Positions 12,630 through 33,728 of a DNA stretch of 51,921 nucleotides are shown here, one piece after another (positions within the stretch are counted from its first letter, which is position 1; each line of letters starts with the position of its first letter). The stretch covers positions 1 to 51,921 of the forward strand of contig WOUQ01000014.1 in the NCBI GenBank assembly GCA_009772925.1, written 5' to 3'. The notes beneath the pieces are model-generated. The model searched no databases and was not told the DNA's origin. It saw only the letters and a program-made list of their open reading frames with translations. Both the position numbers and the translations under genes were made by a program. Origin of the DNA: a bacterium. Lineage in GTDB: Bacteria; Pseudomonadota; Gammaproteobacteria; Burkholderiales; Thiobacillaceae.

Positions 12630-13559
12630 TCAATCCCGCAGGTTGCGCAGGTGGTCGTGGTAGCGGGCGCGGTAGAGCAGGCGCCGATGCCCGGGCCGGT
12701 CGGTGAAGCCGGAGCGGGTGTGCAGCACGTTGTTGCAGATCAGGCCCATACCGGGCTGGAGCTTGAGGGTGAAGGTGCCGAAGGGCCGGCTGGCCAGTAA
12801 CTCCTCCAGCGCATGCAGCGCCGCCTGGGTGGCGGCATCCTGTTTCCAGGCGATGCTCTTGGTGCGCGCCGTGTAGCGCAGGTGCAGCAGCCCCTGATCG
12901 ACGCAGAAGGCGGGCCCGACTTCGTCTTCGCGGGCCACGCCGATCTCGTCCACCCGCGCCGGGATGGTCATGGCGTCTTCCGCCATGAGCGCGCGGATGT
13001 GCGCCGGATTGGCGTCGCGCAGGGCGATGTAGGCCAGTTCGTGGTCCATCAGGTCGTTCTCGCCACCCTCGTCCGCCTGCCGCACACAGTGCAGGGTCAT
13101 GGCCCAGATGCGCCGCTTAGGCGGGTTGTAGTAGCCGTCGGTGTGCCAGCGGATGCGGTGGTGCGTGTAGGGGATGTAGTCGCCGCGCTTGCCGGGGTCG
13201 GCGCCCGGCGCGCGACCGGCAGGGTCGCTGGTGTCTTCGTCACGCGGAGTCAGGCTGGAGATGCCGTCCTCGTCGGCGAGCCAGTTGGCGTCCAGATGGC
13301 TGAGGCCGAACTGGGCGGAGAGCAGGCGGGGGCCGTCCTTGTCCTCGGTTTCTCCCAGGTCGGTGGCGTAGATGGCCATGTTGGTCTTGGCGATCAGGCG
13401 CCAGATTGCGCGGTATTCGTCGTCGGCGAGACGTCTCGGGTCTTTCACCGGGACGATGAGTTCCTCGGCCCGGGTCGGATAGCCGGCCAGCTTGGCCTCG
13501 CGCCAGGCCTGGTAGCCGGTTTCGTTGTCAGGGTGGAACGGGCTGTCGATCGGAATCAA
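12630..13559 (-). CDS. TauD/TfdA-family Fe(II)/2-oxoglutarate dioxygenase
   Basis: The 309-residue protein carries the facial triad of this family: H139 and D141 in WHTDGYYNPP and H280 in NNVLHTRSGF, with an arginine pair shortly after (R292/R293) positioned to bind 2-oxoglutarate. Relatives oxidise sulfonates such as taurine or other small acids, but the substrate here is not evident. A TTG start at 13559 follows the upstream gene's stop by seven bases, and no ATG exists before residue 61. It is the last gene of the six-gene cluster divergent from dsr, and convergent with the response regulator. Confidence 0.82.
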   Translation of the reverse strand: MIPIDSPFHPDNETGYQAWREAKLAGYPTRAEELIVPVKDPRRLADDEYRAIWRLIAKTNMAIYATDLGETEDKDGPRLLSAQFGLSHLDANWLADEDGISSLTPRDEDTSDPAGRAPGADPGKRGDYIPYTHHRIRWHTDGYYNPPKRRIWAMTLHCVRQADEGGENDLMDHELAYIALRDANPAHIRALMAEDAMTIPARVDEIGVAREDEVGPAFCVDQGLLHLRYTARTKSIAWKQDAATQAALHALEELLASRPFGTFTLKLQPGMGLICNNVLHTRSGFTDRPGHRRLLYRARYHDHLRNLRD

Positions 13560-13566
13560 GGCCGAC

Positions 13567-14145
13567 TCACTGGGCGGATGCGGGTGGGTAGAACCCGTCC
13601 ATGTTCTTCTTCACCATGCCCATCATTTCCGGCACCTCGATGTCCATGAGCTGGTCCTGGATCCAGGTCTGGTCGGTTTTCTCCATGCCCTCCCGGATCA
13701 TCAGGGAGAGGAAGCGCAGGGCCTGGAAGCTGGCCTTGTCCTCGGGAAATTCGAACTCGGAATAATCCGACATGCGGCGGTTGAGCAGGTCGATGTAGCC
13801 GTCCTGGTAGTCGTAGTCCGGGTCCGTCTTGCCGTCGGTCATGTCCAGGATGTTCTGCTCCATGATTTCCGCCAGGCGCACGCCGACGGCGCTGACCAGG
13901 TTCTGGCGCTTGCTGTCGTCCATGCGTTCGAAGGCCAGGCGATCGACGTAATGAGTCAGGAAGCAGCTAAGTTCGCCGATGATCTTGAAGCCGCGTTCGG
14001 GGGTGACGATGTCGAAATTGGCCTTGGACAGGTTGTCGACGGCCTTGTCGGCCAGGCGCCAGATGGTCGAGGCCAGCACCGTGGCGACTTCCTCGGCGGG
14101 GCGCTCGCCTTCCTTCTTGAACCAGACGGTTTTTGCGCGCAGCAC
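13567..14145 (-). CDS. Unknown helical protein in the dsr-divergent cluster
   Basis: I do not recognise this 192-residue protein. It is rich in charged residues and predicted helices, lacks a signal peptide or membrane segment, and has a single cysteine (in GELSCFLTHYVDRLAFERMDD). An acidic tyrosine-rich stretch (TDPDYDYQDGYIDLLNRR) lies in the middle. The GTG at 14145 is preceded by GGAG with a seven-base spacer and begins two bases after the stop of the rhodanese gene, so I prefer it to the ATG at 14190. Its tight placement between the rhodanese and dioxygenase genes implies a shared transcript. Confidence 0.75.
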   Translation of the reverse strand: MLRAKTVWFKKEGERPAEEVATVLASTIWRLADKAVDNLSKANFDIVTPERGFKIIGELSCFLTHYVDRLAFERMDDSKRQNLVSAVGVRLAEIMEQNILDMTDGKTDPDYDYQDGYIDLLNRRMSDYSEFEFPEDKASFQALRFLSLMIREGMEKTDQTWIQDQLMDIEVPEMMGMVKKNMDGFYPPASAQ

Positions 14146-14147
14146 GT

Positions 14148-14996
14148 TTATTCTCCGGTGGCGACGGGCCGCGAGGGATCGCGGATCCACTCGCTCCAGG
14201 AGCCGGGGTAGAGGCGGGAACCGGGCAGGCCGGCGATTTCCATGGCCAGCAGGTTATGGCAGGCGGTGACGCCGGAGCCGCAGGTGTGAATGACCTGCCA
14301 GGGCGCGCGGCCCTTCAGCAGGGCCTGGAAGTTCTCGCGCAGGGCTTCCGGCGGCAGGTAGGTGCCGTCGATGTCCAGGTTTTCCTCGAAGGACCAGTTG
14401 ATGGAGCCGGGGATGTGCCCGGCGACCGGGTCCAGGGGTTCGAACTCGCCGCTGAAGCGGCGCTCCGGGCGGGCGTCGATGATGAGGGCGTCGGCAGTTT
14501 GCGAGGCGCGCAGCACGGTGTCGGCGTCGACGATCTGGCTGGGCTCGGGCAGGCAGGCGCAACTACCGCGCCGGCTATCCGGCACTTCGGCGGTGACCGG
14601 GCGTTTTTCGCGCTGCCACTTGGGGTAGCCGCCGTCCAGCAGGGCGACGCCGGGGTGGCCCAGCCAGCGCAGCATCCACCACATGCGCACGGCCATGGCG
14701 CCATAGCTGTCGTCGTAGACCACCACCTGCTTGTTGACGCCGACGCCCCAGCGGCAGACCTTCTCGGCGAAGGCCATCGGCTCCGGCAGGGGATGGCGGC
14801 CGGTGATCTCGGTGATGGGTGCCGACAGGTCGTCGTCCAGATGGACGTAGCGGGCGCCGGGGATGTGGTGTTTCCCGTAGGCTTCCCGGCCCGCGTTGGG
14901 GTCGGTCAGGGTGAAGCGGCAGTCGAACACGATCCAGTTGGGATCGTCGAGATGGGCCGCGAGATCTTCGGTGGTGACGAGGGTATTGGAAAACAT
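14148..14996 (-). CDS. sseA: Two-domain rhodanese, 3-mercaptopyruvate/thiosulfate sulfurtransferase
   Basis: The 282-residue protein has tandem rhodanese domains. The N-terminal domain (FDCRFTLTDPNAGREAYGKHHIPGARYVHLDD) lacks a catalytic cysteine loop, and the C-terminal domain carries the active site CGSGVTACHN. The CGSGVTA loop is typical of mercaptopyruvate sulfurtransferases. It would transfer sulfane sulfur to an acceptor such as a DsrC-like or DsrE-like protein; that is inference from the neighbourhood. No convincing ribosome site precedes the ATG at 14996; a palindromic element lies just upstream. Confidence 0.88.
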   Translation of the reverse strand: MFSNTLVTTEDLAAHLDDPNWIVFDCRFTLTDPNAGREAYGKHHIPGARYVHLDDDLSAPITEITGRHPLPEPMAFAEKVCRWGVGVNKQVVVYDDSYGAMAVRMWWMLRWLGHPGVALLDGGYPKWQREKRPVTAEVPDSRRGSCACLPEPSQIVDADTVLRASQTADALIIDARPERRFSGEFEPLDPVAGHIPGSINWSFEENLDIDGTYLPPEALRENFQALLKGRAPWQVIHTCGSGVTACHNLLAMEIAGLPGSRLYPGSWSEWIRDPSRPVATGE

Positions 14997-15004
14997 GGTG
15001 AGGG

Positions 15005-15053
15005 GTGAGGCGGAAAAGGGGGGGAGGCATGCGCCTCCCGCCTATCGCCTCAC
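15005..15053. repeat. REP-like palindromic element
   Basis: A 49-bp element has outer arms GTGAGGCG and CGCCTCAC and an inner perfect hairpin GGGAGGC-ATGC-GCCTCCC. It fills the gap between the RspA gene and the rhodanese gene. The GTGAGGCG word recurs in the element at 29361-29409. It may act as a transcript-stabilising or attenuating hairpin inside the operon. Confidence 0.6.
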
Positions 15054-15057
15054 GGGA

Positions 15058-15390
15058 TCAATATCCGCCCTTGCCGAAAGGCTTGGTCAGGCCGGCCACC
15101 TTGGCGGCCTGGCGGTTGGGCTGCAGGGGGAAGAGTTCATAGAGCTTCTTCTTCCAGTCCATGCCTTCGATTTCCTCGTCCAGTTCCGCCACCATGTTGC
15201 GGAAGTTCGGCGTGTGGCCGTCTTCCTGGTACTTGCGGCGCATGTAGTTGATGATCTGCCAGTGCTCGTCGGTCAGCGTGATGCCTTCGGCCTCGGCGAT
15301 GACGGGGACGATCTCGTCGCTGAAATTGGCTTCCAGCAGGAAACCATCGTCATCCACTTCCAGTTCTTCGCCGTTCAAAACGTATCCCAC
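15058..15390 (-). CDS. rspA: Cysteine-less DsrC paralogue (RspA type)
   Basis: The 110-residue protein is a clear DsrC/TusE homologue (EELEVDDDGFLLE, TDEHWQIINYMRRKYQEDG, KLYELFPLQPNRQ) but lacks both redox cysteines of the C-terminal arm. The position equal to DsrC C99 is A96 and that equal to C110 is K107, and the arm ends FGKGGY. Such proteins have been described as regulatory sulfur-related proteins (RspA) and cannot carry persulfide or trisulfide sulfur. The GTG at 15390 has a good GGAGAG ribosome site. A full DsrC is encoded 5 kb away in the dsr operon. Confidence 0.88.
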   Translation of the reverse strand: MGYVLNGEELEVDDDGFLLEANFSDEIVPVIAEAEGITLTDEHWQIINYMRRKYQEDGHTPNFRNMVAELDEEIEGMDWKKKLYELFPLQPNRQAAKVAGLTKPFGKGGY

Positions 15391-15442
15391 GGTTCTCTCC
15401 TATCAGACAAGTTGAAAATAACGTGTGCGGCGGCCGGATCGC

Positions 15443-16096
15443 TCAGCCGCCGCCCACTTCCTTGATGGATTTGTGCGGCACGAAGATGCCGCAGCCGTAA
15501 CCACGATGCAGGCCCAGACCGCGTTCCTGCACGGTCAGCGATTGCAGCAGACTGATATCGTGCAACATCAGGCTGAAGCCGCCAATAACCCCATTGGGGG
15601 TGTGCATGTCGCGCCGCTTGCCCGGGATCAGGCCGGCGCGGATGTCCATGGCCTCCAGTTCCCGCCGCGCCGCCTCGATGAAGGCCGCTTCATCGATGCT
15701 GCCCAGGTCGACGAAGTGGGCGTAGAGCGTGGCAAAGGGGGTCAGGGGCTTTTCCTTCACGGCGCCGATCAGGAGTTCGCCGGCGCCGGGATCGATACTG
15801 CGACCCTGCAGGGCGTGGGCCTCGGCAATGCGCTCGATGGGCAGGCGCAACACCAGCTTCACGCGCCGATTGATGACCAGGTTGGCATTGCGGCCGCTGG
15901 GTGCGCCGTGCACCGGATGCACGCCCGCCTCCGGCAGTTCCCGCAGCCAGGGCAGGTGTCGGGCCAGGGCTTCGAACAGGGCGTAGCCGTGGTCCTGAGG
16001 AAGCTCGAAGCCACTCAGGTCGAACTGGATCTCGCGGAATTTGGCGATGTGCTCGAAGTCCTTGATGGCTTCCCATTCCGGGCTGTACATGCGCAT
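15443..16096 (-). CDS. Cas6/Cmx6-family (type I-MYXAN Cas6-like) RNA-binding protein
   Basis: The 217-residue product resembles the Cmx6 variant of Cas6, a RAMP-fold RNA endonuclease family. It has the N-terminal ELPQDHGYALFEALARHLPWL segment with H36, GVHPVHGAPSG, a LVLRLPIERI strand, GGFSLMLHDIS, and the C-terminal glycine-rich loop QERGLGLHRGYGCGIFVPHK (residues 190-209). The family match is from memory of its pattern; RNA cleavage is not shown. No CRISPR array or other cas gene is present, and the neighbours are sulfur-related, so a non-CRISPR role is likely. It starts three bases after the 79-aa gene ends. Confidence 0.75.
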   Translation of the reverse strand: MRMYSPEWEAIKDFEHIAKFREIQFDLSGFELPQDHGYALFEALARHLPWLRELPEAGVHPVHGAPSGRNANLVINRRVKLVLRLPIERIAEAHALQGRSIDPGAGELLIGAVKEKPLTPFATLYAHFVDLGSIDEAAFIEAARRELEAMDIRAGLIPGKRRDMHTPNGVIGGFSLMLHDISLLQSLTVQERGLGLHRGYGCGIFVPHKSIKEVGGG

Positions 16097-16099
16097 GGG

Positions 16100-16339
16100 T
16101 CAGGTCTCCCCGTTGGTCGGCGACGCGGTGTCCAGGGGGGGGGCCCACTTGAGCATTTCCTCGGCCCAGTAGCGCGCGGTGACCGGATCGATGTCGAAGA
16201 TCGTGAAGCGCGCGCCACGCTCGCGGATGCGCAGCCGCAGCATGGGCGTGCCTCCCGCCTCGTAGCGCACGTCCTGAAATTCGATTTCCTGGTTGCCATA
16301 AGGATTTCTGAACTTCGCAAGCGAGGTGATCTGGTCCAT
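16100..16339 (-). CDS. Small unknown protein heading the dsr-divergent cluster
   Basis: This 79-residue protein is not recognised. It looks like a small alpha/beta domain (FRNPYGNQEIEFQDVRYEAGG, then MLRLRIRERGARFTIFDIDPVTARYWAEEMLKWA) with no cysteine and no signal peptide. It is the first gene of the minus-strand cluster and shares the 263-bp divergent control region with dsrA. The stop lies three bases before the Cas6-like ATG, so the two are almost certainly co-expressed. The arginine-rich strand could bind nucleic acid, but this is speculative. Confidence 0.7.
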   Translation of the reverse strand: MDQITSLAKFRNPYGNQEIEFQDVRYEAGGTPMLRLRIRERGARFTIFDIDPVTARYWAEEMLKWAPPLDTASPTNGET

Positions 16340-16602
16340 AATCTATAAGCTTTCGTTGATTTGCTAATTATCTGACATTTTAAGTCGGGTATTTACAGTT
16401 CCGAGTTGGATTATCCAGAACCTACCCGTTCGGGTAGGTCGAGGATACCCGAGTGAAGGACCCGGTTACCCCATCGGAATGATGGAAGGCTCGATTAGGG
16501 CTCACTAATATGCGATGACTGGACCGTGCGGTCTGAAGCCGGCGGCAAGGTGCTGTTAGTTGTGACGACACCCGTAGTTCAAGACTTCAAGGAGAAAGAC
16601 AG
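16340..16602. promoter_or_regulatory. Divergent control region of dsr operon and Cas6-like/RspA cluster
   Basis: This 263-bp noncoding region separates the two divergent operons. Its centre is a perfect inverted repeat, ACCTACCCG-TT-CGGGTAGGT at 16420-16439, a likely operator. Further GGGTA or TACCC words occur at about 16387, 16446 and 16464. The half next to the minus-strand gene is AT-rich (16340-16400). A TAATAT at 16506-16511 could be a -10 element for dsrA, without a clear -35. A strong AAGGAG ribosome site precedes dsrA. Confidence 0.6.
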
Positions 16603-17904
16603 ATGGCTAAGCAACAGTATAAAACGCCCAACCTGGACGATTTGGAGAAGGGTCCCTGGCCCTCTTTCGTCACCGGCCTGAAGCGCCTGGCCAACGAGAA
16701 CGACATGATGGTCGACCTCATGGGCCAGCTCGAAACCTCCTATGAGACCAAGTTCGGCTACTGGAAGGGCGGCACCGTCGGCGTGGTGGGCTACGGTGGC
16801 GGCGTCATCCCCCGCTTCACCGAACTGAAAAATTCCGACGGCACCCCCAAGTTCCCCGAGTCCGCCGAATTCCACACCCTGCGCATCCAGCCTCCCGCCG
16901 GCATGCACTACACCTCCGACCTGCTGCGCCAGATGTGCGACGCCTGGCTGGAGACCGGTGGTTCCGGTCTGATCGCCTTCCACGGCCAGTCCGGCGACAT
17001 CATGTTCCAGGGCATCAAGACCGAGGACGTGCAGCGTTCCTTCGACAAGTTCAACGAGATGGGCTTCGACCTCGGTGGCGCCGGTCCCGCCCTGCGCACC
17101 TCCATGTCCTGCGTCGGCGCCGCGCGTTGCGAGATGTCCTGCTATGACGAGGCCCGCGCCCTGCGCACCGTCATCAACAACAACCTGGACGACATGCACC
17201 GTCCGTCCCTGCCGTACAAGTTCAAGTTCAAGTTCTCCGGCTGCCCGAACGACTGCGTCAACGCCATCCAGCGTTCCGACATGGCCACCATCGGCACCTG
17301 GCGCGACAGCATGCGCGCGGACGAGAAGATCGCCCGTGAATGGATGGCTGCGCACAGCATGGAAGACCTGACCAACATGGTCGTTTCCATGTGTCCCACC
17401 CGCGCCATCCGCCTGGTGAAGAACGACGGCGCCGCCGCCGGCGAGGGCATCACCAAGGTGGCGGTGTCCGACGCCAACTGCCTGGAGATCGACAACCACA
17501 ACTGCGTGCGCTGCATGCACTGCCTGAACGTCATGCCCGGCGCCCTGCTTCCCGGCAAGGACAAGGGCGTCACCATCCTGGTCGGCGGCAAGGGTGTGCT
17601 GAAGATCGGCGCCACCATGGGTACCGTGGTGATCCCGTTCATGAAGATGGAGTCCGACGAGGACTTCGAGAAGCTGAACGAGCTGTCCCGCAACATCCTC
17701 GACTTCTTCGCCGAGAATGCCCTCGAGCACGAGCGTACCGGCGAGATGATCGATCGCATCGGCCTGGTCAACTTCCTGGAGGGCATCGGCCTCGAGGTGG
17801 ATGCCAACATGATCGTGCATCCCCGCAGCAACCCCTACGTGCGCATGGATGGCTGGGACGAGGAAGCCGAGAAGTGGTTCGAGCGCAAGCAGGCCGCGGC
17901 CTGA
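16603..17904 (+). CDS. dsrA: Reverse dissimilatory sulfite reductase, alpha subunit
   Basis: The 433-residue subunit pairs with DsrB to form the cytoplasmic siroheme/Fe-S reductase that in sulfur oxidisers runs in reverse, oxidising DsrC-bound sulfur to sulfite. Siroheme-[4Fe-4S] ligands are C170 and C176 in CVGAARCEMSC and C214/C218 in GCPNDC. The inserted ferredoxin domain begins at C293 with C301, C304 and C307 (CLEIDNHNCVRCMHC). Length and order match DsrA. It leads the dsr operon behind a good ribosome site; a strong hairpin separates it from dsrB. Oxidative type is inferred from the accompanying dsrL and dsrEFH. Confidence 0.97.
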   Translation: MAKQQYKTPNLDDLEKGPWPSFVTGLKRLANENDMMVDLMGQLETSYETKFGYWKGGTVGVVGYGGGVIPRFTELKNSDGTPKFPESAEFHTLRIQPPAGMHYTSDLLRQMCDAWLETGGSGLIAFHGQSGDIMFQGIKTEDVQRSFDKFNEMGFDLGGAGPALRTSMSCVGAARCEMSCYDEARALRTVINNNLDDMHRPSLPYKFKFKFSGCPNDCVNAIQRSDMATIGTWRDSMRADEKIAREWMAAHSMEDLTNMVVSMCPTRAIRLVKNDGAAAGEGITKVAVSDANCLEIDNHNCVRCMHCLNVMPGALLPGKDKGVTILVGGKGVLKIGATMGTVVIPFMKMESDEDFEKLNELSRNILDFFAENALEHERTGEMIDRIGLVNFLEGIGLEVDANMIVHPRSNPYVRMDGWDEEAEKWFERKQAAA

Positions 17905-17938: not shown

Positions 17939-17979
17939 GGTAAAGCAAGGTTTTCGATCTCAATAGGTTGGAGATAAGC

Positions 17980-19053
17980 ATGGCTGAAAGAACTCACGAG
18001 ACCATCGAATCCGGCGCGCCGGACCCGATGCCCTACATGCACCCCGTCATGAAGAATAATTATGGGAAGTGGATCTACCACTCCCATCCCAAGCCGGGTG
18101 TGCTGTACCACCGCGCCGAGGGCGGCGCCGAAGTCTGGACCGTCAAGGCGGGCACCCAGCGCCAGATGGATCACTACACCGTGCGCAAGCTGGCCGACAT
18201 CGCCGACCAGTTCGCCGACGGCTTCGTGCGCTTCACCACCCGTTCCAACATCGAGTACATGGTCACCGACCAGTCCAAGGTCGAGCCCCTGATCAAGGCC
18301 CTTTCCGACAATGGCTTCCCGGTCGGCGGCACCGCCAACTCGGTGTCCATGATCGCCCACACCCAGGGCTGGCTGCACTGTGACATCCCCGGCACCGACG
18401 CCTCCGGCGTGGTGAAGGCGCTGATGGATGAGTTGTACGACGAATTCGTCAAGTGCGAGATGCCCAACCGGGTCAAGCTGTCCACCTCCTGCTGCGAGAT
18501 CAACTGCGGCGGCCAGGCCGACATCGCCATCATCGTCCAGCACACCAAGCCGCCGAAGATCAACCACGACCTGGTTGCCAACATCTGCGAGCGTCCCTCC
18601 GTCGTCGCCCGCTGTCCGGTGGCCGCCATCCGTCCCGCCCTGGTGAACGGGAAGCCCTCGCTGGAAGTGGACGAGAAGAAGTGCATCTGCTGCGGTGCCT
18701 GCTTCCCTCCCTGCCCGCCCATGCAGATCAACGACCCCGAGCATTCGAAGATCGCCATCTGGGTCGGCGGCAAGAACTCCAACGCCCGTTCGCGCCCCAC
18801 TTTCCACAAGCTGGTGGCCGCCGGCCTGCCCAACAACGCCCCGCGTTGGCCCGAAGTTGCCGAGGTGGTCATGAAGATCCTGGCCGTCTACAAGGCCGAT
18901 GGCCGTCCCTGGGAGCGCATGACCGACTGGATCGATCGTATCGGTTGGCCCGCGTTCTTCGAGAAGACCGGTCTGCCCTTCACCAAGTACCACATCGACA
19001 ACTGGCGTGGTGGTCGCAGCAGCCTGAACGCTTCCGCGCACATCCGCTTCTGA
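17980..19053 (+). CDS. dsrB: Reverse dissimilatory sulfite reductase, beta subunit
   Basis: The 357-residue beta subunit completes the alpha2beta2 DsrAB enzyme. Cluster ligands are visible in STSCCEINCGGQ (about residues 168-178) and CERPSVVARCPVAAI, followed by the ferredoxin insert KKCICCGACFPPCPPMQI. I chose ATG 17980, preceded by GGAG, over an in-frame TTG four codons upstream. Strong hairpins occur both before and after the gene. dsrE begins 66 bp downstream. Confidence 0.97.
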   Translation: MAERTHETIESGAPDPMPYMHPVMKNNYGKWIYHSHPKPGVLYHRAEGGAEVWTVKAGTQRQMDHYTVRKLADIADQFADGFVRFTTRSNIEYMVTDQSKVEPLIKALSDNGFPVGGTANSVSMIAHTQGWLHCDIPGTDASGVVKALMDELYDEFVKCEMPNRVKLSTSCCEINCGGQADIAIIVQHTKPPKINHDLVANICERPSVVARCPVAAIRPALVNGKPSLEVDEKKCICCGACFPPCPPMQINDPEHSKIAIWVGGKNSNARSRPTFHKLVAAGLPNNAPRWPEVAEVVMKILAVYKADGRPWERMTDWIDRIGWPAFFEKTGLPFTKYHIDNWRGGRSSLNASAHIRF

Positions 19054-19119: not shown

Positions 19120-19479
19120 ATGAAGATCGGCATTATGGTTAGCGAAGGCCCGTATAACCATCAGGCGAGCGATACCGCGTATCTCTTCGCCCGTACGGCT
19201 ATCGAGAAGGGCCATAAAGTGCCTCGCGTGTTCTTTTATCACGACGGCGTCAACAACTCGACCAAGCTCACCGAGCCCCCCCAGGATGACCGTCACGTGG
19301 TCAACCGCTGGTCCAAGCTGGCGGAAGACCACGGCGTCGATCTGGTGGTGTGCGTCGCCGCCGGCATGCGCCGCGGCATCAAGGACGAGATTCTGGCTCC
19401 CGGATTCCGCATTTCCGGCCTGGGCCAGTTGGTGGAAGCCGGCATCCAGTGTGATCGCCTGGTGACCTTCGGCGATTAA
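19120..19479 (+). CDS. dsrE: Sulfur relay protein DsrE
   Basis: The 119-residue protein is the catalytic subunit of the DsrE2F2H2 hexamer, which passes persulfide sulfur to DsrC in sulfur oxidisers. The conserved active cysteine falls at C78 in DLVVCVAAGMRRG, the position known from characterised DsrE. It is homologous to TusD. A GGAGATAGGG ribosome site precedes the ATG. dsrF follows after ten bases. Confidence 0.95.
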   Translation: MKIGIMVSEGPYNHQASDTAYLFARTAIEKGHKVPRVFFYHDGVNNSTKLTEPPQDDRHVVNRWSKLAEDHGVDLVVCVAAGMRRGIKDEILAPGFRISGLGQLVEAGIQCDRLVTFGD

Positions 19480-19489
19480 GGGGAACGCA

Positions 19490-19888
19490 ATGAGCGACAT
19501 GATGGATGACATGGAAGGCGGCGAAGGCGTCGTCAAGAAATTCATGTTCGTCAACCGCAAGGCGCCGCACGGCACCGTTTACGCCCTGGAAGGCCTGGAA
19601 GTGGTGTTGATTTCCGCTGCCTTCGATCAGGACGTGAGCATGGTGTTCACCGACGATGGCGTGTACGAACTGATCAAGGGCATGAACACCAAGGGTATCG
19701 AGGTCAAGGACTTCTCCAAGACCTACCGCGCTCTCGAAGGCTACGACATCGAGAAACTATATGTCGAGAAAGCGTCCATGGACGCCCGCGGTCTTTCCGA
19801 GGACGACCTGATCGTGGATGTGACCGTGCTCGACAGCGCCGAGATGGCCAGCCTCATGGCTGAGCAGGACGTCGTCATCAGCTTCTGA
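19490..19888 (+). CDS. dsrF: Sulfur relay protein DsrF
   Basis: The 132-residue protein is the TusC-like structural subunit of DsrEFH. It shows KKFMFVNRKAPHGTVYALEGLEVVLISAAFDQDVSMVFTDDGVY, the usual DsrF core, after an acidic methionine-rich N-terminal leader (MSDMMDDMEGGEG). It contains no cysteine, as expected for the non-catalytic subunit. A GGGGAA ribosome site precedes the start. Confidence 0.94.
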   Translation: MSDMMDDMEGGEGVVKKFMFVNRKAPHGTVYALEGLEVVLISAAFDQDVSMVFTDDGVYELIKGMNTKGIEVKDFSKTYRALEGYDIEKLYVEKASMDARGLSEDDLIVDVTVLDSAEMASLMAEQDVVISF

Positions 19889-19899
19889 GGAAAACGAAC

Positions 19900-20199
19900 A
19901 TGCTGCATATCGTCAATAAGTCGGCCACCGAGCGGAACTCCCTGGAGAGCTGCCTGCGCATGGCCACCAAAGGTTCCGCAGTGTTGCTGATCGAGGATGC
20001 CGTTTATGCGGCGACCCAGGGCAACGAGGCGGCGGCGAAAATCCAGGCGGCCATGGCCGACCTTCAGCTTTATGCCCTGGGGCCCGACATGGAAGCGCGC
20101 GGCATGGCCGGGCGTGTTCTGGATGGGGTGAAACTGGTGGATTACGGCGGTTTTGTGGATCTGGTGACGGAACACAGCACCTGTCAGTCCTGGCTGTAA
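19900..20199 (+). CDS. dsrH: Sulfur relay protein DsrH
   Basis: The 99-residue TusB-like subunit completes the DsrEFH hexamer. It begins MLHIVNKSATERNSLESCLRMA with a conserved cysteine at C18, near the position of the DsrH active cysteine. The C-terminus DYGGFVDLVTEHSTCQSWL is typical. It is spaced 11 bp after dsrF and 25 bp before dsrC. Confidence 0.94.
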   Translation: MLHIVNKSATERNSLESCLRMATKGSAVLLIEDAVYAATQGNEAAAKIQAAMADLQLYALGPDMEARGMAGRVLDGVKLVDYGGFVDLVTEHSTCQSWL

Positions 20200-20224
20200 T
20201 TTTTGTTCTTTAAGGAGAAATGCT

Positions 20225-20560
20225 ATGCCTATGGTCGAAGTTGCTGGCAAGTCGTTCGAAGTCGATGAAGAGGGTTACCTGACCAATCTGGCCGACTGGA
20301 CTAGGGAAATCGGGGAATACCTGGCCAAGGATGAAAAGGTTGAGTTGACCGATAGCCACTGGGAAGTGATCAACTTCCTGCGCGAGTACTACGAGGAGTA
20401 TCAAATCGCTCCCGCCGTGCGCGTGCTGACCAAGGCTGTCGCCAAGAAGCTCGGTCCGGACAAGGGCAACAACAAGTATCTGTACGAACTGTTCCCCTAC
20501 GGTCCCGCCAAGCAGGCTTGCAAGATCGCCGGCCTGCCCAAGCCGACCGGCTGCATCTGA
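20225..20560 (+). CDS. dsrC: Sulfur carrier protein DsrC
   Basis: The 111-residue carrier has both redox cysteines of the flexible C-terminal arm, C99 and the penultimate C110 (KQACKIAGLPKPTGCI). These carry persulfide or trisulfide sulfur between DsrEFH, DsrAB and the DsrMKJOP complex. The YLYELFPYGPAKQ segment and TDSHWEVINFLREYYEEY helix are diagnostic. An AAGGAG site lies upstream. Contrast the cysteine-less paralogue at 15058-15390. Confidence 0.97.
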   Translation: MPMVEVAGKSFEVDEEGYLTNLADWTREIGEYLAKDEKVELTDSHWEVINFLREYYEEYQIAPAVRVLTKAVAKKLGPDKGNNKYLYELFPYGPAKQACKIAGLPKPTGCI

Positions 20561-20582
20561 TCGCTCTACGGAGCCGCATCAA

Positions 20583-20604
20583 CCCGGCGGGTGCGCCCGC
20601 CGGG
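20583..20604 (+). promoter_or_regulatory. Intercistronic hairpin between dsrC and dsrM
   Basis: CCCGGCGGG-TGCG-CCCGCCGGG is a perfect 9-bp stem with a 4-base loop, 22 bp after the dsrC stop and without a T-run. It could protect the upstream message and allow higher DsrC than membrane-complex levels. Confidence 0.65.
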
Positions 20605-20699
20605 CGCTGTTCGAAGGTGTTTGAGCCAGTGTGAATCCAGCCGCCCGGAAGCTTTTTTCGGCTCCGGTGAGGTGTTCTGCCCGACATGCAGAGGTGGGG

Positions 20700-21437
20700 A
20701 TGACTTCGTTGACGATTTTTTACTCGGTGCTGTTTTACATCGCCACTCTGGTGTTGCTTGGCGGAGTCGCCTATCGCATCTACGAGTATGCCCGTACGCC
20801 GGCTCCCCTGAATATTCCCACCACGCCCGCGCCCACCAGCAAGGGTGGCGTGGCGGTGCGCATGGCCCGTGAGGTCGTGCTGTTCGAATCCCTGTTCAAG
20901 TCCAACAAATGGATCTGGCTGTTCGGCTGGCTGTTCCATGTCGGCCTGGCTCTGGTCCTGTTGCGACATCTGCGCTATTTCCAGGAACCCGTATGGTTCT
21001 GGGTCGAGTTCATCCAGCCTTTCGGTAAATACGCCAGTTTTGCCATGGTCGCCGGCCTCGCCGGACTGTGGGCGCGCCGTTTCCTGGTGGACCGCGTGCG
21101 CTACATCTCCACCCCCTCCGATCACCTGATGCTGGCCCTGCTCATCGCCATCGGCCTGTCCGGCATGCTGATGACCTTCGTCGCGCATACCGACATCGTC
21201 GCCGTCAAGGCATTCATGCTCGGCCTGATGACCTTCAATTTCCATCCCATGCCCGCGGACCCGGTGTTGATGGCCCACCTGTTCCTGGTGGCGGTGCTGA
21301 TGATCATCTTCCCGGTAAGCAAGCTGCTGCACGCTCCGGGTATCTTCTTCAGCCCGACCCGCAATCAGGCCGACGATCCGCGTGAAACCCGCCATATCGC
21401 GCCCTGGGCCGCGGCCCTGGAACGCGACAGGGCCTGA
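20700..21437 (+). CDS. dsrM: DsrM, membrane cytochrome b subunit of DsrMKJOP
   Basis: The 245-residue NarI-like integral membrane protein binds b haem and exchanges electrons with the quinone pool for the DsrMKJOP complex. About six hydrophobic segments are visible, including TIFYSVLFYIATLVLLGGVAY at the N-terminus. Candidate haem-ligand histidines lie in GWLFHVGLALV and PVLMAHLFLVAV. ATG 20700 is preceded by GAGGTGGGG; the GTG at 20631 would add a soluble leader and is rejected. Confidence 0.93.
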   Translation: MTSLTIFYSVLFYIATLVLLGGVAYRIYEYARTPAPLNIPTTPAPTSKGGVAVRMAREVVLFESLFKSNKWIWLFGWLFHVGLALVLLRHLRYFQEPVWFWVEFIQPFGKYASFAMVAGLAGLWARRFLVDRVRYISTPSDHLMLALLIAIGLSGMLMTFVAHTDIVAVKAFMLGLMTFNFHPMPADPVLMAHLFLVAVLMIIFPVSKLLHAPGIFFSPTRNQADDPRETRHIAPWAAALERDRA

Positions 21438-21490
21438 GTCCGCCCGCTGACGCACGATGCGAACCGAGCTGAGAGAGATAAGGAGCTAAC

Positions 21491-23014
21491 GTGGCTGGTC
21501 CCGAGTTCGAAGTCCCCGCGCTGACCGAATACACGGAAGTCCCCAAGATCAAGGAGGGGGCGACCGCGCACCTGAAGTCCTTCATCGCCGCCGAGGCTTC
21601 CCAGTCCTACCTGGGCTATCCGCATCAGTTGCCCGCGGACTGGAAGGAACGCGTCCTCGATCGCATGGGCCAGGTGCTGGAGAAGTACCGCTCGGTGCGC
21701 GTGTTCATGGATGCCTGCGTGCATTGCGGCGCCTGCACCGACAAATGCCATTACTTCCTGGGTACCGCCGACCCCAACAACATGCCGGTGGCGCGCCAGG
21801 AACTGATGCGCAAGGTCTACCGCCGCTATTTCACCCTGCCGGGCAAGATCGCCCCCTGGCTGGTGGGCGCCGAGGACCTGACCGAGGACACCCTCAACAA
21901 GTGGTACAACTACTACCACCAGTGCTCCGAATGCCGGCGCTGCTCGGTCTACTGCCCCTATGGCATCGACACCGCCGAGATCACCATGGCCGGGCGCGAG
22001 ATCCTCAACCACGTGGGCATCGGCCAGAAGTATTCCAGCGAAATCCTGGTGAAGGTGCAGAAGATCGGCAATAACCTGGGCCTGCCCGGGCCGGCTCTGG
22101 AAGACACCCTGCTGGGTCTGGAGGAGGATATCGAGGCCGATACCGGCGTGCCGGTGAAGATGCCGCTGGACGTCGAAGGCGCCGAAATCCTGTTGGTCAC
22201 GCCCTCCGCCGATTTCTTCTCCGAACCCCACGTCGAGTCGCTGATCGGCTATGCCAAGGTGTTCCATGCCGCCGGCGCGTCCTGGACCCTGTCCAGCAAG
22301 GCGTCCGAGGCCGGTAATTTCGGCCTGTTCAACGGCAATTACGAAACCATGCGCGCCATCGCCATGCGCATCCGCGATGCCGCCCTGGAACTGGGCGTCA
22401 AGCGCATCATCGTCGGCGAGTGCGGGCACGCCTGGCGCGTGGCCTACGCCTTCTGGAACACCCTGACCGGCATCGGCTACGGCGGCGACGATCCCTTCTC
22501 CGTCGAACTGCAGAAGCGGCTCGACCCGCGTTACCCGCAGCCCATGCACATCTGCGAATACACCTGGGATCTCATCGAGAAGGGCGTGCTCAAGTTCGAC
22601 AAGTCCCTCAACGACGACCGCGTCATCACCTTCCACGATTCCTGCAACGTCGCGCGCGGTTCGCGCATGGGCACGGAACCGGGCGGCCAGTTCACCATTC
22701 CGCGCAACATCATCCGCGCGGTGGCCAACAACTACCAGGACATGGCGGCGGAAACCATCGGTGAATCCACCTTCTGCTGCGGTGGCGGCGGCGGCCTGCT
22801 GACCGACGACCTCATCGAGGTGCGGGTGAAGGGTGCGTTACCGCGCATGAATGCCTACAACAACGTGGTGCAGGGCCAGAGCGTCAACTTCCTGGCGCTC
22901 ATCTGCGCCATCTGCAAGGCGCAGTTCACCAAGGTTCTGCCTTATTACGGATTCGACCGCAACATGGTCGGTGGCGTGCACCAGCTCGTCGGCACGGCCA
23001 TCAAGCTGGATTGA
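21491..23014 (+). CDS. dsrK: DsrK, HdrD-like iron-sulfur subunit
   Basis: The 507-residue cytoplasmic subunit of DsrMKJOP resembles the catalytic subunit of heterodisulfide reductase. Two [4Fe-4S] ferredoxin motifs (CVHCGACTDKC, CSECRRCSVYCPYG) precede the CCG-type catalytic cluster elements HDSCNVARGSRM and TFCCGGGGGLLTDD. It is thought to interact with DsrC disulfide or trisulfide. It starts with GTG at 21491 behind an AAGGAG site. A long 107-bp gap with a hairpin follows before dsrL. Confidence 0.95.
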   Translation: MAGPEFEVPALTEYTEVPKIKEGATAHLKSFIAAEASQSYLGYPHQLPADWKERVLDRMGQVLEKYRSVRVFMDACVHCGACTDKCHYFLGTADPNNMPVARQELMRKVYRRYFTLPGKIAPWLVGAEDLTEDTLNKWYNYYHQCSECRRCSVYCPYGIDTAEITMAGREILNHVGIGQKYSSEILVKVQKIGNNLGLPGPALEDTLLGLEEDIEADTGVPVKMPLDVEGAEILLVTPSADFFSEPHVESLIGYAKVFHAAGASWTLSSKASEAGNFGLFNGNYETMRAIAMRIRDAALELGVKRIIVGECGHAWRVAYAFWNTLTGIGYGGDDPFSVELQKRLDPRYPQPMHICEYTWDLIEKGVLKFDKSLNDDRVITFHDSCNVARGSRMGTEPGGQFTIPRNIIRAVANNYQDMAAETIGESTFCCGGGGGLLTDDLIEVRVKGALPRMNAYNNVVQGQSVNFLALICAICKAQFTKVLPYYGFDRNMVGGVHQLVGTAIKLD

Positions 23015-23041
23015 TGTATCGATATTGACGCAACACATGGC

Positions 23042-23059
23042 GGCACGGGCTTCCGTGCC
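23042..23059 (+). promoter_or_regulatory. Intercistronic hairpin between dsrK and dsrL
   Basis: GGCACGG-GCTT-CCGTGCC, a perfect 7-bp stem, lies 27 bp after the dsrK stop in the 107-bp spacer. No T-run follows. Confidence 0.5.
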
Positions 23060-23121
23060 AACCCGAGTAGCAAAGTGGTTTGGCGCACGCGCCGCACGAA
23101 ATTGACGATAGGAGAGCGAAG

Positions 23122-25080
23122 ATGGCTGTCACATCCAAGGATGTCAAAAAAACCGAAGGTCTGACCTGGCGCCGTTACAAGGATGGCGAAACGGAAGAGA
23201 ACTATCGCCGTTCCCAGGAAATGATTTTCCAGGCCAGCTGGACGCACAAGTGCCCCGAGTACGTGCACTCCACCCCGCCTTGCCAGGGTTCCTGCCCCGC
23301 CGGCGAGGATATTCGCGGCTATCTCAACATCGTGCGCGGCATCGAGAAGCCCACCGGTGGTCAGAGCTGGCAGGAATACGCCTGGCGCCGGCTGACCAGC
23401 GCCAACCCCTTCCCCGCCGTCATGGGCCGGGTTTGTCCCGCCCCCTGCGAGTCCGGTTGCAACCGCAACATGGTGGAGGAGAACGTCGGCATCAATTCCG
23501 TCGAACACTTCCTGGGTAACTGGGCGCTGGACAACAACATGGCTTTCGCCAAGCCCGAGACCGAGTCCGGCAAGAAGATCGCCATCATCGGTGGCGGCCC
23601 CGCCGGTCTGGCCGCCGCCTACCAGCTGCGCCGCATGGGCCATGGCTGCACCATTTTCGACGACCACGCCGAACTCGGCGGCATGATGCGCTACGGCATC
23701 CCCGGCTTCCGCACCCCCCGTGAAGTGCTGGACGGCGAGATCAAGCGCATTCTCGACATGGGCGTGGAAACCCGCATGAACTGCCGCGTCGGCACCGACT
23801 TCCCCATGGAGCAGATCGAGAAGGACTTCGACGCCGTGCTGATCGCCCTGGGCGCCCAGGGTGGTCGCAGCCTGCCGGTGGACGGCGCCGACGCGCCCAA
23901 CTGCGTCACCGCCATGTCCTTCCTGCGGGCCTTCAACGAAGGCCGCCTGCAGCACGTGGGCGACCGGGTGGTGGTCATCGGCGGTGGCGACACCTCCATC
24001 GACGTGGCCACGGTCGCGCGCCGCCTCGGCAAGGTCACCAACGCCTCCAAGTCCGACCTGCCCGAGATGGTGCTGGCCGGCCATGCCGCCCATGATGTGG
24101 CTTCCATCGCTGCCCGCCAGGGTGTCGAGGTGGTGCTGATCTCCCGCGCCACCATCGACAAGATGGCCGCCAACAAGCACGAAGTGGAACAGGCCAAGTC
24201 CGAGGGTATCGAGATCATCGGCGGTGTCACCCCCGTCGCCGTGATCAAGGGCCCGGACGGTCGCGCCATCGCCCTGCGCGTGGCCGAGTTCGAGATGGTC
24301 GGCAACGAGACCAAGATCAAGGCAGGCACCGAGTACGACATCCATGGCGACCTCATCGTCTCCGCCATCGGCCAGGCCGTGGACTTTACCGGTCTGGAGA
24401 CGTTCAACAACAACAAGGGCCTGATCCGCGCCGACAAGAACTACCGCTTCCCCGGCAAGGAGAACGTGTTCATCGCCGGCGACGTCATCCGTCCGCACCT
24501 GCTGACCACCGCCATCGGCCATGCCCGCATCTGCGCCGAGGGCATCGACGTTTTCCTCAAGGGCGAGGAACAGGATCGCCGTCCCAAGGTGGATGTGGCG
24601 CATTGGGATCAAGTGCGCAAGTGGGTGGAATCCGGCCATGAGTACAAGGAGCATCACGGTCAGACCTGGGGTACCGACTCCTGGAAGGACACCCTGCACA
24701 ACTACGAGGATCGTTCCGGCCGTTACGTGATCCCCTCCACCGAGATGTTCCTTGGCCACTTCGTCAACGTGCCCCGCAATCAACGTGGCGTCACGGTGCT
24801 GGACAAGGATTCCGCCCTGGGCAACTTCGAGGACCGCCTGCACGCCCTGGACGAGAAGCAGACCGTGGCGGAAGCCAAGCGCTGCATGTCCTGCGGCCTC
24901 TGCTTCGAATGCGACAACTGCGTGGTGTACTGCCCGCAGACCGCCGTGTTCAAGGTGAAGAAGAAGGACAACCCCACCACCGGCCGCTACGTGGATACCG
25001 ACTATGCCAAATGCATCGGCTGCCACATCTGCGCCGATGTGTGCCCCACCGGCTACATCGTCATGGGTATGGGCGAGTAA
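23122..25080 (+). CDS. dsrL: DsrL, iron-sulfur flavoprotein NAD(P)H oxidoreductase
   Basis: The 652-residue cytoplasmic protein resembles the small subunit of glutamate synthase fused to ferredoxin. The N-terminal cysteine region (KCPEYVHSTPPCQGSCPAGED) is followed by an FAD fold (IIGGGPAGLAAAYQLRRMGHG, about residue 155), an NAD(P)H fold (VVIGGGDTSIDVATVARRLG), and two C-terminal [4Fe-4S] motifs (CMSCGLCFECDNC, CIGCHICADVCPTG). DsrL accepts electrons from DsrAB during sulfur oxidation, so it marks the oxidative type of pathway. ATG 23122 follows GGAGAG; the upstream start at 23080 is unsupported. Confidence 0.95.
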   Translation: MAVTSKDVKKTEGLTWRRYKDGETEENYRRSQEMIFQASWTHKCPEYVHSTPPCQGSCPAGEDIRGYLNIVRGIEKPTGGQSWQEYAWRRLTSANPFPAVMGRVCPAPCESGCNRNMVEENVGINSVEHFLGNWALDNNMAFAKPETESGKKIAIIGGGPAGLAAAYQLRRMGHGCTIFDDHAELGGMMRYGIPGFRTPREVLDGEIKRILDMGVETRMNCRVGTDFPMEQIEKDFDAVLIALGAQGGRSLPVDGADAPNCVTAMSFLRAFNEGRLQHVGDRVVVIGGGDTSIDVATVARRLGKVTNASKSDLPEMVLAGHAAHDVASIAARQGVEVVLISRATIDKMAANKHEVEQAKSEGIEIIGGVTPVAVIKGPDGRAIALRVAEFEMVGNETKIKAGTEYDIHGDLIVSAIGQAVDFTGLETFNNNKGLIRADKNYRFPGKENVFIAGDVIRPHLLTTAIGHARICAEGIDVFLKGEEQDRRPKVDVAHWDQVRKWVESGHEYKEHHGQTWGTDSWKDTLHNYEDRSGRYVIPSTEMFLGHFVNVPRNQRGVTVLDKDSALGNFEDRLHALDEKQTVAEAKRCMSCGLCFECDNCVVYCPQTAVFKVKKKDNPTTGRYVDTDYAKCIGCHICADVCPTGYIVMGMGE

Positions 25081-25097
25081 TCAGAAGGATGAACGGC

Positions 25098-25556
25098 ATG
25101 GCAAAACTGGCCGATTGGTTGCGTCTGGTCGTCCTGGCGGGGGTGGCGGCGGTATTGGCCGTACCCTCCTTCCAGGCGGCGGCGGGCGTGGGCTTGCCCA
25201 AGCTGGAGCGGGGCAAGGGCGAGAAATGCGTGGAAGACACGCAGTTCATGCGCCGCAACCACATGGAACTGCTCAAGCATCAGCGCGATGACACCATGCG
25301 CAAGGGCATCCGCACCACCAAGCACAGCCTCAAGGGCTGCGTCGAGTGCCACGCCGGCAGCCAGAGCGGCAGCGTCGCGGCCGGCAAGGATGACTTCTGC
25401 ATGGCCTGCCATGTGTATACCGGCACCCGGCTGGACTGCTGGGACTGCCACGCCACCAAACCCGGCAAGCAATCGTTCTTCGGCACCGGCGCTGCCGCCG
25501 GACAGGCGGCCGCTTCGCCTCGGAATCCCGCCCACAACCAGGGAGGCGGACAATGA
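25098..25556 (+). CDS. dsrJ: DsrJ, triheme periplasmic cytochrome c
   Basis: The 152-residue cytochrome has an N-terminal hydrophobic anchor or signal (WLRLVVLAGVAAVLAVPSF) and three CxxCH motifs (CVECHAG, CMACHVY, CWDCHAT), as in characterised DsrJ of the DsrMKJOP complex. The ATG at 25098 has AAGGA about eight bases upstream; the in-frame ATG at 25089 is too close to that site. Its stop overlaps dsrO by ATGA. Confidence 0.94.
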   Translation: MAKLADWLRLVVLAGVAAVLAVPSFQAAAGVGLPKLERGKGEKCVEDTQFMRRNHMELLKHQRDDTMRKGIRTTKHSLKGCVECHAGSQSGSVAAGKDDFCMACHVYTGTRLDCWDCHATKPGKQSFFGTGAAAGQAAASPRNPAHNQGGGQ

Positions 25557-26299: not shown

Positions 26300-26302
26300 A
26301 CC

Positions 26303-27508: not shown

Positions 27509-27526
27509 AGCCGGCCGCAATCCGAC

Positions 27527-27558
27527 AAAAGCCGACTAAATCTGTCGGCTTTTTGTTT
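27527..27558 (+). terminator. Rho-independent terminator after dsrP
   Basis: A 10-bp stem AAAAGCCGAC/GTCGGCTTTT with a 7-base loop (TAAATCT) is followed by a T-rich tract. It lies between dsrP and dsrN, 22 bp before the dsrN start, implying a separate or reduced dsrN transcript. Confidence 0.88.
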
Positions 27559-27579
27559 TTGCACGGGTAAAATGCCGCC

Positions 27580-33643: not shown

Positions 33644-33700
33644 GATTGTGCGAAGCTGAGCAGGGGTCTGTTGTTGCTTTGCAGCATAGACTGCACATTG

Positions 33701-33728
33701 TTACGGCGCCATTGCACGGGCGTATAGT
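33701..33728 (+). promoter_or_regulatory. Possible promoter of the deacetylase gene
   Basis: TTACGG and TATAGT, 16 bp apart, lie within the 121-bp divergent spacer, 37 bp before the deacetylase start. The -35 match is weak. Nothing else stands out in the spacer. Confidence 0.3.

Follow-up and report, generated by a model that had tools for sequence, protein, structure and literature searches.

What does a gene of the CRISPR-associated Cas6 family do beside the dsr operon of a Thiobacillaceae genome, and does it still belong to CRISPR? The question arises from contig WOUQ01000014.1 (GCA_009772925.1), of which a stretch of 51,921 nt, here called the window, was analysed. The original prediction described six minus-strand ORFs running together and divergent from dsr, and all six are present at the positions it gave (Table 1).

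Locus and gene order

The dsr genes were assigned with NCBIfam models, by which dsrA, dsrB, DsrE/TusD, the DsrC family protein and DsrK score above their cut-offs and DsrM below its own. The L-, N- and CysG-like genes match generic models only, and the protein at position P has no NCBIfam match at 1e-20. We take genes F, H, J, O and P to be what their position and general knowledge of dsr operons suggest. Within the cluster, the conserved protein of no named family has no Pfam family and no convincing PDB match. Its GTG start at 14145 is more likely than the one at 14190, judging from the sequence context, because it follows the rhodanese stop directly and is preceded by GGAGAA.

Table 1 Features of the Cas6-like gene cluster and the neighboring dsr operon in the window.
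Feature	Position	Strand	Support
DUF6967 protein, 79 aa	16100..16339	-	PF22295 E 5.4e-29
Cas6/Cmx6-family protein, 217 aa	15443..16096	-	PF09559 E 3.8e-55; TIGR02807
DsrC-like protein without Cys, tail GKGGY	15058..15390	-	PF04358 E 2.3e-31
Two-domain rhodanese, active loop CGSGVTAC	14148..14996	-	PF00581 E 9.4e-29
Conserved protein, no family name	13567..14145	-	111/114 assessable loci
TauD-like Fe(II)/2-oxoglutarate dioxygenase, HTD motif	12630..13559	-	PF02668 E 5e-18
Intergenic control region common to cluster and dsrA, 263 bp	16340..16602	.	
Inverted repeat, operator-like	16412..16447	.	core at 16421-16438
dsrA, divergent from cluster	16603..17904	+	TIGR02064 504.9 bits
dsrB	17968..19053	+	TIGR02066 505.1 bits
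Remaining dsr operon (E, F, H, C, M, K, L, J, O, P, N by position)	19120..28968	+	

The Cas6-like protein

By profile and predicted structure, the Cas6-like protein is a full Cas6 with two ferredoxin-like (RAMP) domains. It scores 187.3 bits against PF09559 (cut-off 26.7) and 151 against TIGR02807 (cut-off 98.85). The AF2 model (pLDDT 90.1) has 8fcj_B and 8fcu_B as best Foldseek matches (TM 0.82-0.83 over 202-204 columns), followed by other Cas6 proteins. The protein thus shares profile scores and the double RAMP fold (TM 0.83) with CRISPR Cas6/Cmx6 proteins of type I-MYXAN and with the I-B CAST Cas6 (PDB 8fcj), as well as a D-H pair at helix 1 (D35-H36) and a glycine-rich loop with Cys. This loop reads G193-x-G195-xx-R198-xx-G201-C202-G203 and is followed by P207-H208-K209. 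G193, G195, G201, C202, G203, P207, H208 and K209 do not vary across 122 of the 123 aligned rows, and the remaining row (L049) stops ahead of the loop. The fold and the loop, to which the original prediction had pointed as checks, are therefore both borne out.

The dsr-linked proteins form a clade apart from seven cyanobacterial plasmid Cas6 (SH-aLRT 99, quick tree). The loop Cys is also found in seven of eight cyanobacterial plasmid proteins, whereas the PHK motif after the loop, present in 122/123 dsr-linked rows, occurs in none of the eight. His36 is not fixed in the dsr-linked proteins: residue 36 is H in 84 rows, Y in 27, N in 5, S in 3, A in 3 and D in 1. It is thus lost in 39/123 rows, its catalytic assignment being by position alone. 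At least nine changes at this residue are seen on the tree, a quick one that carries a long-branch warning and does not give their direction. According to the available parts of PMC3727216, a catalytic His in the N-terminal domain is common among Cas6 proteins but not universal.

The replacement of His36 and two broken genes, L130 with an in-frame stop and L049 (G048) with its remainder in another frame, would suit a fossil Cas6 without function that is merely carried along in the operon. The frame is, however, free of internal stops in 168 of 169 loci (one genome's copies counted too), and 13 columns are invariant among 51 divergent sequences. We regard a functionless relic as highly improbable.

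Conservation of the cluster and its tie to dsr

The arrangement was found in 124 distinct loci, with dsrA divergent in all 117 that could be assessed. The conservation in other sulfur-oxidizer genomes that the original prediction called for is thus evident, and a chance neighborhood was set aside because the arrangement recurs so often. Among assessable loci, DUF6967 accompanies the Cas6-like gene in 116/121, the DsrC-like gene in 118/124, the conserved protein of no named family in 111/114 and TauD in 106/112. Carriers include the named strains Sulfurisoma sediminicola BSN1 and Hydrogenophaga aromaticivorans D2P1.

Across 398 genomes of the phylum, all five PF09559 genes adjoin dsr. Among 101 genomes, 58 have both the Cas6-like gene and DsrB, three the Cas6-like gene alone, two DsrB alone and 38 neither. 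PF09559 is absent from five of ten sampled genomes with oxidative-type DsrB, which indicates that dsr is able to work without the Cas6-like gene. PF22295, the DUF6967 family, was present in all 10 sampled genomes whose DsrB match was near full length and reached ≥68% identity, and absent from the other 388 of the 398, making DUF6967 a candidate marker gene of oxidative dsr. Three loci (L197, L198 and L200) have TauD and DUF6967 divergent from dsrA without Cas6, and the next ORF in L197 (5996-7441) resembles, by eye, a siroheme synthase. A search for viral carriage of the cluster yielded 600 pattern stretches, none of which was confirmed.

No description of the cluster was found in the open-access literature searched. 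It is not shown in the available parts of PMC3397948, PMC6397845, PMC8730458, PMC10952691, PMC8889020, PMC5944118 and PMC3727216, and a term search of the accessible portion of PMC11406059 gave no occurrence.

Independence from the CRISPR partners tested

The original prediction stated that the 52 kb hold neither CRISPR repeats nor other cas genes, and our searches agree. A k-mer scan of the window and of the examined dsr-linked loci of at least 3 kb detected no array, nothing in the window matches the repeat core of the genome's array at ≤3 mismatches, and PADLOC, run on 16 window proteins (of 48 chosen ORFs), recognized no further Cas protein. The match of a window response regulator to CARF models (E 1e-8) is confined to its HTH part. 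Unlike a CRISPR Cas6, then, the window gene has no adjoining cas genes or array, and in place of the cas3/cas8/cas7/cas5 of a type I-MYXAN system it has sulfur-type neighbors. Seven of the eight cyanobacterial plasmid Cas6, by comparison, have cas neighbors.

The Cas6-like gene could alternatively serve an array elsewhere in the genome, a situation that the original prediction had named as speaking against its reading. The genome does have an array, but the one found in a less than genome-wide search (L072) is part of a type I-C system that includes a Cas5c, and in type I-C it is Cas5c that does the Cas6 step (PMC3727216, available parts). Among the 101 genomes, cas1 occurs in 51 and is more common in carriers of the Cas6-like gene (39/61 versus 12/40, Fisher p 0.0011), an association that kinship may confound. 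Conversely, 22 of the 61 carriers lack cas1, ten of these being listed as at least 98% complete. Strong Cas10 matches exist in some relatives, whereas the match in the genome itself lies under the cut-off, and DevR-type Cas7 (PF01905) was found in none of the 101 genomes, this one included. There is very little chance that the gene works for CRISPR in trans.

Given the linkage to dsr, the carriers without cas1, the lack of DevR in all 101 genomes and an own array of type I-C with Cas5c, a CRISPR-family Cas6 appears to have been recruited to sulfur oxidation. CRISPR proteins outside plain immunity are known from CAST, STAND-linked I-E and CreTA (PMC8730458 and PMC9458426, available parts). As described there, such exapted systems still come with several cas genes or with CRISPR-like RNAs, whereas here a lone Cas6 sits within a metabolic operon.

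Partner proteins

The DUF6967 protein was modeled by AF2 as four strands followed by a helix (pLDDT 88.0). No Foldseek match was obtained at 0.001, and a PDB sequence search with the DUF6967 profile gave nothing useful. PURA, Pur-alpha and a PC4 homologue make up the top six Foldseek matches, all weak (E 0.039-0.2), with rmsd values of 3.6-9.0 and 7.4 for the best match. The model resembles the PC4 and PUR-alpha single-strand nucleic-acid binders in its four-strand sheet and helix, but no sequence-family link between these and DUF6967 was found. We see in DUF6967 a candidate for a PC4/PUR-like protein that binds single-stranded nucleic acid.

PF04358 and TIGR03342 both place the DsrC-like protein in the DsrC family, and it has an arm around AGLxKPxG similar to that of DsrC/TusE proteins. 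Among 116 full-length relatives, none has a Cys in the last three residues and 109 end in GKGGY; a Cys at the other position is kept in 13, with 15 unplaced by the pattern used. This protein may resemble RspA, a name given to DsrC-like regulators without both Cys. The C-terminal loss sets it apart from DsrC proper, in which the penultimate sulfur-carrying Cys is strictly conserved (PMC3397948, available parts). According to the available parts of a genome paper (PMC5944118), the DNA upstream of dsr is bound by DsrC in Allochromatium vinosum, which provides a precedent for control of dsr by the DsrC family.

The sulfurtransferase of the cluster varies: across 116 assessable loci, 58 have a rhodanese, 39 a tandem TusA (assigned by PF01206 in a single protein tested), 19 neither and none both. 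The rhodanese active-loop pattern is intact in 58/58. The window protein scores 149.1 bits against the NCBIfam equivalog for 3-mercaptopyruvate sulfurtransferase, below the required 250, and on sequence is placed in the rhodanese family only. WH[TS]D is found in 105/106 TauD-like relatives and the distal-His pattern in 86/106.

These partners could be taken as components of a sulfur-dependent RNA modification pathway, in which the Cas6-like and DUF6967 proteins hold an RNA such as tRNA, rhodanese or TusA passes on persulfide sulfur, the DsrC-like protein is a TusE-family scaffold and TauD is a second modifying enzyme. The mutually exclusive occurrence of rhodanese and TusA, the intact rhodanese loops and TauD HxD motifs and the placement of the DsrC-like protein within the TusE/DsrC family would fit. 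On the other hand, 19 loci have neither sulfurtransferase, the carrier Cys is missing from all 116 DsrC-like proteins, no known thiolation enzyme is found among the six cluster proteins and tRNA work needs no tight linkage to dsr. We consider such a pathway unlikely.

The cluster might instead act on proteins, assembling, modifying or protecting DsrAB/DsrC, for example through hydroxylation by TauD or a Cys-less DsrC as placeholder, with the Cas6 fold serving as a protein-binding scaffold without RNA. This would agree with the GKGGY tail, with the three loci in which TauD and DUF6967 face dsrA without Cas6 and with the apparent siroheme synthase next to one of them. It is harder to reconcile with the conservation of the Cas6-like protein, which peaks in the predicted RNA-binding loop, and with the weak resemblance of DUF6967 to nucleic-acid binders. 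A role at the protein level is somewhat unlikely.

Search for RNA targets

Hairpins with z < -2 are present in the dsrA-B, B-E and C-M gaps of 16/36, 12/33 and 20/30 Hydrogenophilaceae-like loci, respectively, and of 8/45, 3/47 and 7/34 other Cas6-positive loci (L108-L171), relative to lenient controls of 30 or 60 mononucleotide shuffles. They share no motif that we could see and also occur in the Cas6-negative loci L197, L198 and L199. Intercistronic dsr hairpins were therefore rejected as a general target of the Cas6-like protein, as they do not track the gene.

The inverted repeat in the common control region has the core CCTACCCG(N)2CGGGTAGG, which is near-invariant in the family alignment and occurs at one site in the genome at ≤1 mismatch, compared with three per strand for a control pattern. 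Its outer arms pair in some genomes only, and few loci of other families have the repeat. In 41 intergenic rows, RNAalifold recovered the invariant core but otherwise nothing beyond small, weak stems, with no covariation; its z values are unreliable because the shuffles were nearly without spread. A Cas6 stem-loop was rejected on the grounds that the core is nearly invariant in sequence and the arms pair in some genomes only, and we read the palindrome as operator-like.

Proposed role of the Cas6-like protein

Synteny, co-occurrence and the missing CRISPR partners give good support to the non-CRISPR, dsr-tied role suggested by the original prediction; the RNA side of that proposal fared less well, as a search for a conserved RNA target found none. 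RNA-level control or sulfur-dependent RNA modification would nevertheless fit with DUF6967 as a second predicted nucleic-acid-binding fold (a weak match) and with the alternative sulfur carrier TusA.

We tentatively favor the explanation that Cas6 was recruited into a dsr accessory operon, where it serves oxidative dsr in an RNA-binding, post-transcriptional accessory role. Recruitment would apparently have been a single event, into an operon of DUF6967, Cas6, DsrC-like protein, conserved protein and TauD, to which tandem TusA or a rhodanese is often added. The Cas6-like protein would bind RNA via its invariant glycine-rich loop, beside DUF6967, and adjust dsr expression at the post-transcriptional level. 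The Cys-less DsrC-like protein, retaining the DsrC arm, may act as a decoy for DsrC partners or sense them, and in loci that have a sulfurtransferase this enzyme could supply a sulfur signal. Several observations weigh against this explanation: the TauD and sulfurtransferase neighbors imply a chemistry that it covers poorly, the searches made found no RNA target, His36 is lost in 39/123 rows, dsr can work without the Cas6-like gene, two genes are broken and the DUF6967 match is weak. A bolder version, in which Cas6 has been domesticated as a sulfur-responsive processor or stabilizer of dsr transcripts with a PC4/PUR-like partner, persulfide from rhodanese or TusA acting as a switch, possibly via the invariant Cys202 of the predicted RNA-binding loop, and the Cys-less DsrC reporting pathway load, seems doubtful to us.

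The NCBIfam model that names such proteins is called "type I-MYXAN CRISPR-associated protein Cas6/Cmx6", a CRISPR name under which the dsr-linked clade is easily hidden. If the proposed RNA role is true, a CRISPR nuclease family would be at work inside a purely metabolic operon, which would open up post-transcriptional control of dissimilatory sulfur oxidation.

A conserved Cas6-like gene cluster divergent from dsr

The Cas6-like gene belongs to a cluster of closely spaced genes on contig C27 of a 3.22 Mb draft genome (76 contigs, listed completeness 100), with dsrA starting on the plus strand 263 bp away. The named records closest to the window are betaproteobacterial and Hydrogenophilus or Thiobacillus MAGs. 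One cluster gene matched no family in the Pfam or NCBIfam search and most likely starts at 14145.

Features of the window and of related loci (G, genome; G000, own genome; L, locus, a stretch of a relative's or record's DNA)
Feature	Position	Strand	Evidence or content
Cluster, six genes	12630-16339	-	ORFs, Pfam and NCBIfam
DUF6967 gene	in cluster	-	PF22295, 5.4e-29
Cas6-like gene	15443-16096	-	PF09559 3.8e-55; TIGR02807 151 bits, cut-off 98.85
DsrC-like gene	in cluster	-	family match 2.3e-31 (Pfam/NCBIfam)
Rhodanese gene	in cluster	-	family match 9.4e-29 (Pfam/NCBIfam)
Conserved gene without Pfam family	13567-14145	-	
TauD gene	in cluster	-	family match 5e-18 (Pfam/NCBIfam)
Palindrome	16412-16447		CCTACCCGNNCGGGTAGG; cluster-dsrA intergenic region
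Two-component pair	10702-12593		GAF/HisKA_3 histidine kinase, LuxR-type response regulator
Acyl-CoA-ligase/GNAT acetyltransferase gene adjoining histone-deacetylase-like gene	30965-34688		
Type I-C CRISPR-Cas locus, own genome	L072 863-13075		Cas3c, Cas5c, Cas8c, Cas7c, Cas1c, Cas2c, long array
dsr-linked PF09559, phylum sample	G000 window; G024 L034; G080 L070; G342 L185; G084		
cas6/cmx6, Gloeobacter plasmid pGMOR1	L177 5968-8540		near PAPS-reductase-family gene

Among 101 genomes, comprising our own and 100 relatives, the Cas6-like protein was found in 61, DsrB in 60 and DUF6967 in 61. Cas6-like protein and DsrB occur together in 58 genomes and are both absent from 38, leaving three with Cas6-like protein alone (G025, G055, G060) and two with DsrB alone (G005, G040). 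Fragmented assembly explains all five exceptions well: each genome is in 220 to 880 contigs, dsrA lies at or near a contig end beside the cluster in the first three, and DsrB is only partial in the other two. The genome-contig scan retained 80 of 103 confirmed Cas6-like loci. In total, 140 loci with flanks were reduced to 124 distinct ones by comparing the initial 150 residues of each matched Cas6-like protein; since the window protein served as query, this sample is skewed toward its kin. In loci with enough flanking contig to judge, a divergent dsrA lies within 4 kb in 117/117, and DUF6967 adjoins the Cas6-like gene in 116/121. Co-oriented genes no more than 4.5 kb away are the DsrC-like gene (118/124), the gene without Pfam family (111/114), TauD (106/112) and rhodanese (58/110). 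The cluster, originally described from the window, is conserved beyond it, and the Cas6-like gene is also present in records titled gammaproteobacterial, Chromatiales or Acidiferrobacteraceae (L139, L141, L151, L167).

The two-component pair is convergent to the cluster and adjoins it in several relatives too. The palindrome is near-invariant across Hydrogenophilaceae-like intergenic regions and occurs once in our own genome; it is a possible site for this response regulator. GC-rich intercistronic hairpins occur in the dsrA-dsrB and dsrC-dsrM gaps and are common in the window's family, rarer in others. At locus L109, the dsrA-DUF6967 intergenic region is unusually long (747 bp) and carries three REP-like hairpins with similar stems.

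Sequence and structure of the Cas6-like protein

Alignment drew on 171 loci, 169 of them at least 2.5 kb long with a match, and gave 123 distinct sequences of 150-330 residues; L130 was excluded because a stop interrupts its matched frame. The glycine-rich loop is present: G193, G195, G201, C202, G203, P207, H208 and K209 (window protein numbering) are identical in 122/123 rows, and R198 is R in 118. The remaining row, L049 (G048), stops before the loop and continues in another frame; the broken reading of L130 and L049 may reflect sequencing error or decay. At the place of the N-terminal catalytic histidine, the window protein has His36, but a histidine is kept there in only 84 of the 123 rows, the others having Y (27), N (5), S (3), A (3) or D (1). 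Loss of this histidine does not prove loss of cleavage, because Sulfolobus Cas6 enzymes work with neither a general acid nor a general base (PMC3727216).

Eight cyanobacterial plasmid Cas6 sequences, seven of which lie among cas genes, served for comparison. Seven carry the histidine (the eighth lacks that end) and seven the loop cysteine, whereas none has the PHK motif. A quick tree separated 97 dsr-linked sequences (<85% mutual identity) from seven plasmid sequences with SH-aLRT 99, subject to a long-branch warning, and implied at least nine changes between His and other residues at position 36. On pGMOR1, no other cas gene is named near cas6/cmx6. The predicted model (pLDDT 90.1) reaches TM 0.83 to the CAST Cas6 8fcj_B. 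The protein therefore has Cas6 family membership, Cas6 fold and dsr linkage. The protein family is already known; what appears new is the system, not the fold, and its function is putative. Searches of the open literature found no description of a lone Cas6 in a conserved metabolic operon.

Independence from the CRISPR partners tested

That the Cas6-like protein serves CRISPR in trans is very unlikely, although type III systems can borrow a Cas6 in this way. Strong Cas10 matches in some relatives and the higher frequency of cas1 in carriers (39/61) than in non-carriers (12/40) favor such use, although the cas1 excess may reflect kinship. Against it, the array of our own genome (commonest 20-mer 29 times) belongs to a type I-C system with its own Cas5c, which in type I-C makes the pre-crRNA cut (PMC3727216), and the only cas1 lies inside that locus. 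Further, cas1 is absent from 22/61 carriers, including ten listed as at least 98% complete (G003, G020, G026, G027, G035, G044, G074, G084, G088, G094), and DevR-type Cas7 was found in 0/101 genomes. The sole Cas10-palm match in our own genome scored 25.4 bits, below the cut-off of 27; such weak matches mean little because the model also scores in E. coli. The Cas6-like protein is independent of the CRISPR partners tested, in agreement with the non-CRISPR role originally suggested.

Cluster partners and putative function

The DUF6967 model, a fold of four strands plus one helix (pLDDT 88.0), resembles PURA, Pur-alpha and a PC4 homologue in its best six PDB matches, a likeness that is only a lead given E-values of 0.039 to 0.2 and rmsd of 3.6 to 9.0. 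The DsrC-like protein, originally described as cysteine-less in the window, retains the arm of DsrC, but its last three residues are Cys-free in 116/116 full-length relatives, 109 of which end in GKGGY. A cysteine at the other position is kept in 13, and 15 were unplaceable. The penultimate cysteine is strictly conserved in DsrC (PMC3397948), and A. vinosum DsrC is reported to bind DNA upstream of dsr (PMC5944118). Across the 124 loci, the sulfurtransferase is rhodanese in 58 and tandem TusA in 39, both in 0 and neither in 19, with 8 cut by contig ends; at L117, TusA (PF01206, 8.9e-36) lies between the Cas6 and DsrC-like genes. This split follows kinship and so need not represent many replacements. 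The rhodanese loop is intact in 58/58, and TauD retains HxD in 105/106 and, by pattern search, the distal His in 86/106.

We tentatively favor RNA-level control, in which the Cas6-like protein would bind RNA through its conserved glycine-rich loop, acting jointly with DUF6967, while the Cys-less DsrC-like protein might be a sensor and rhodanese or TusA might supply a sulfur signal. Of the originally suggested non-CRISPR role, dsr linkage and independence from the tested CRISPR partners stand, but searches of the intercistronic hairpins and the cluster-dsrA intergenic region found no RNA target. Protein-level help to Dsr is rather unlikely, and sulfur-dependent RNA modification still less probable. 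A persulfide switch at Cys202 is speculation; this cysteine is also found in 7/8 plasmid sequences.

Phylum-wide distribution and proposed order of recruitment

In a less biased sample of 398 genomes drawn evenly across the phylum, PF09559 occurs in five, always beside dsr; in G084, it shares a contig with DsrB about 1.9 kb away. DsrB was detected at E 1e-20 or better in 53 genomes. The ten with DsrB matches of at least 340/361 residues and at least 68% identity are exactly the ten with DUF6967, which is found in none of the other 388. The other 43 DsrB genomes have identities of at most 65% and neither DUF6967 nor PF09559, G185 being exceptional in identity only (a 135-residue piece at 69%).

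PF09559 is absent from five of the ten DUF6967 genomes. At L197, L198 and L200, TauD and DUF6967 are divergent from dsrA without Cas6; at L199, the DUF6967 match adjoins TauD, and in G386 (L196), DUF6967 and dsr lie on separate contigs. We infer that TauD and DUF6967 form an older core to which Cas6 was recruited later; its absence from Cas6-less dsr loci could possibly represent loss instead. DUF6967 is a candidate marker of oxidative dsr.
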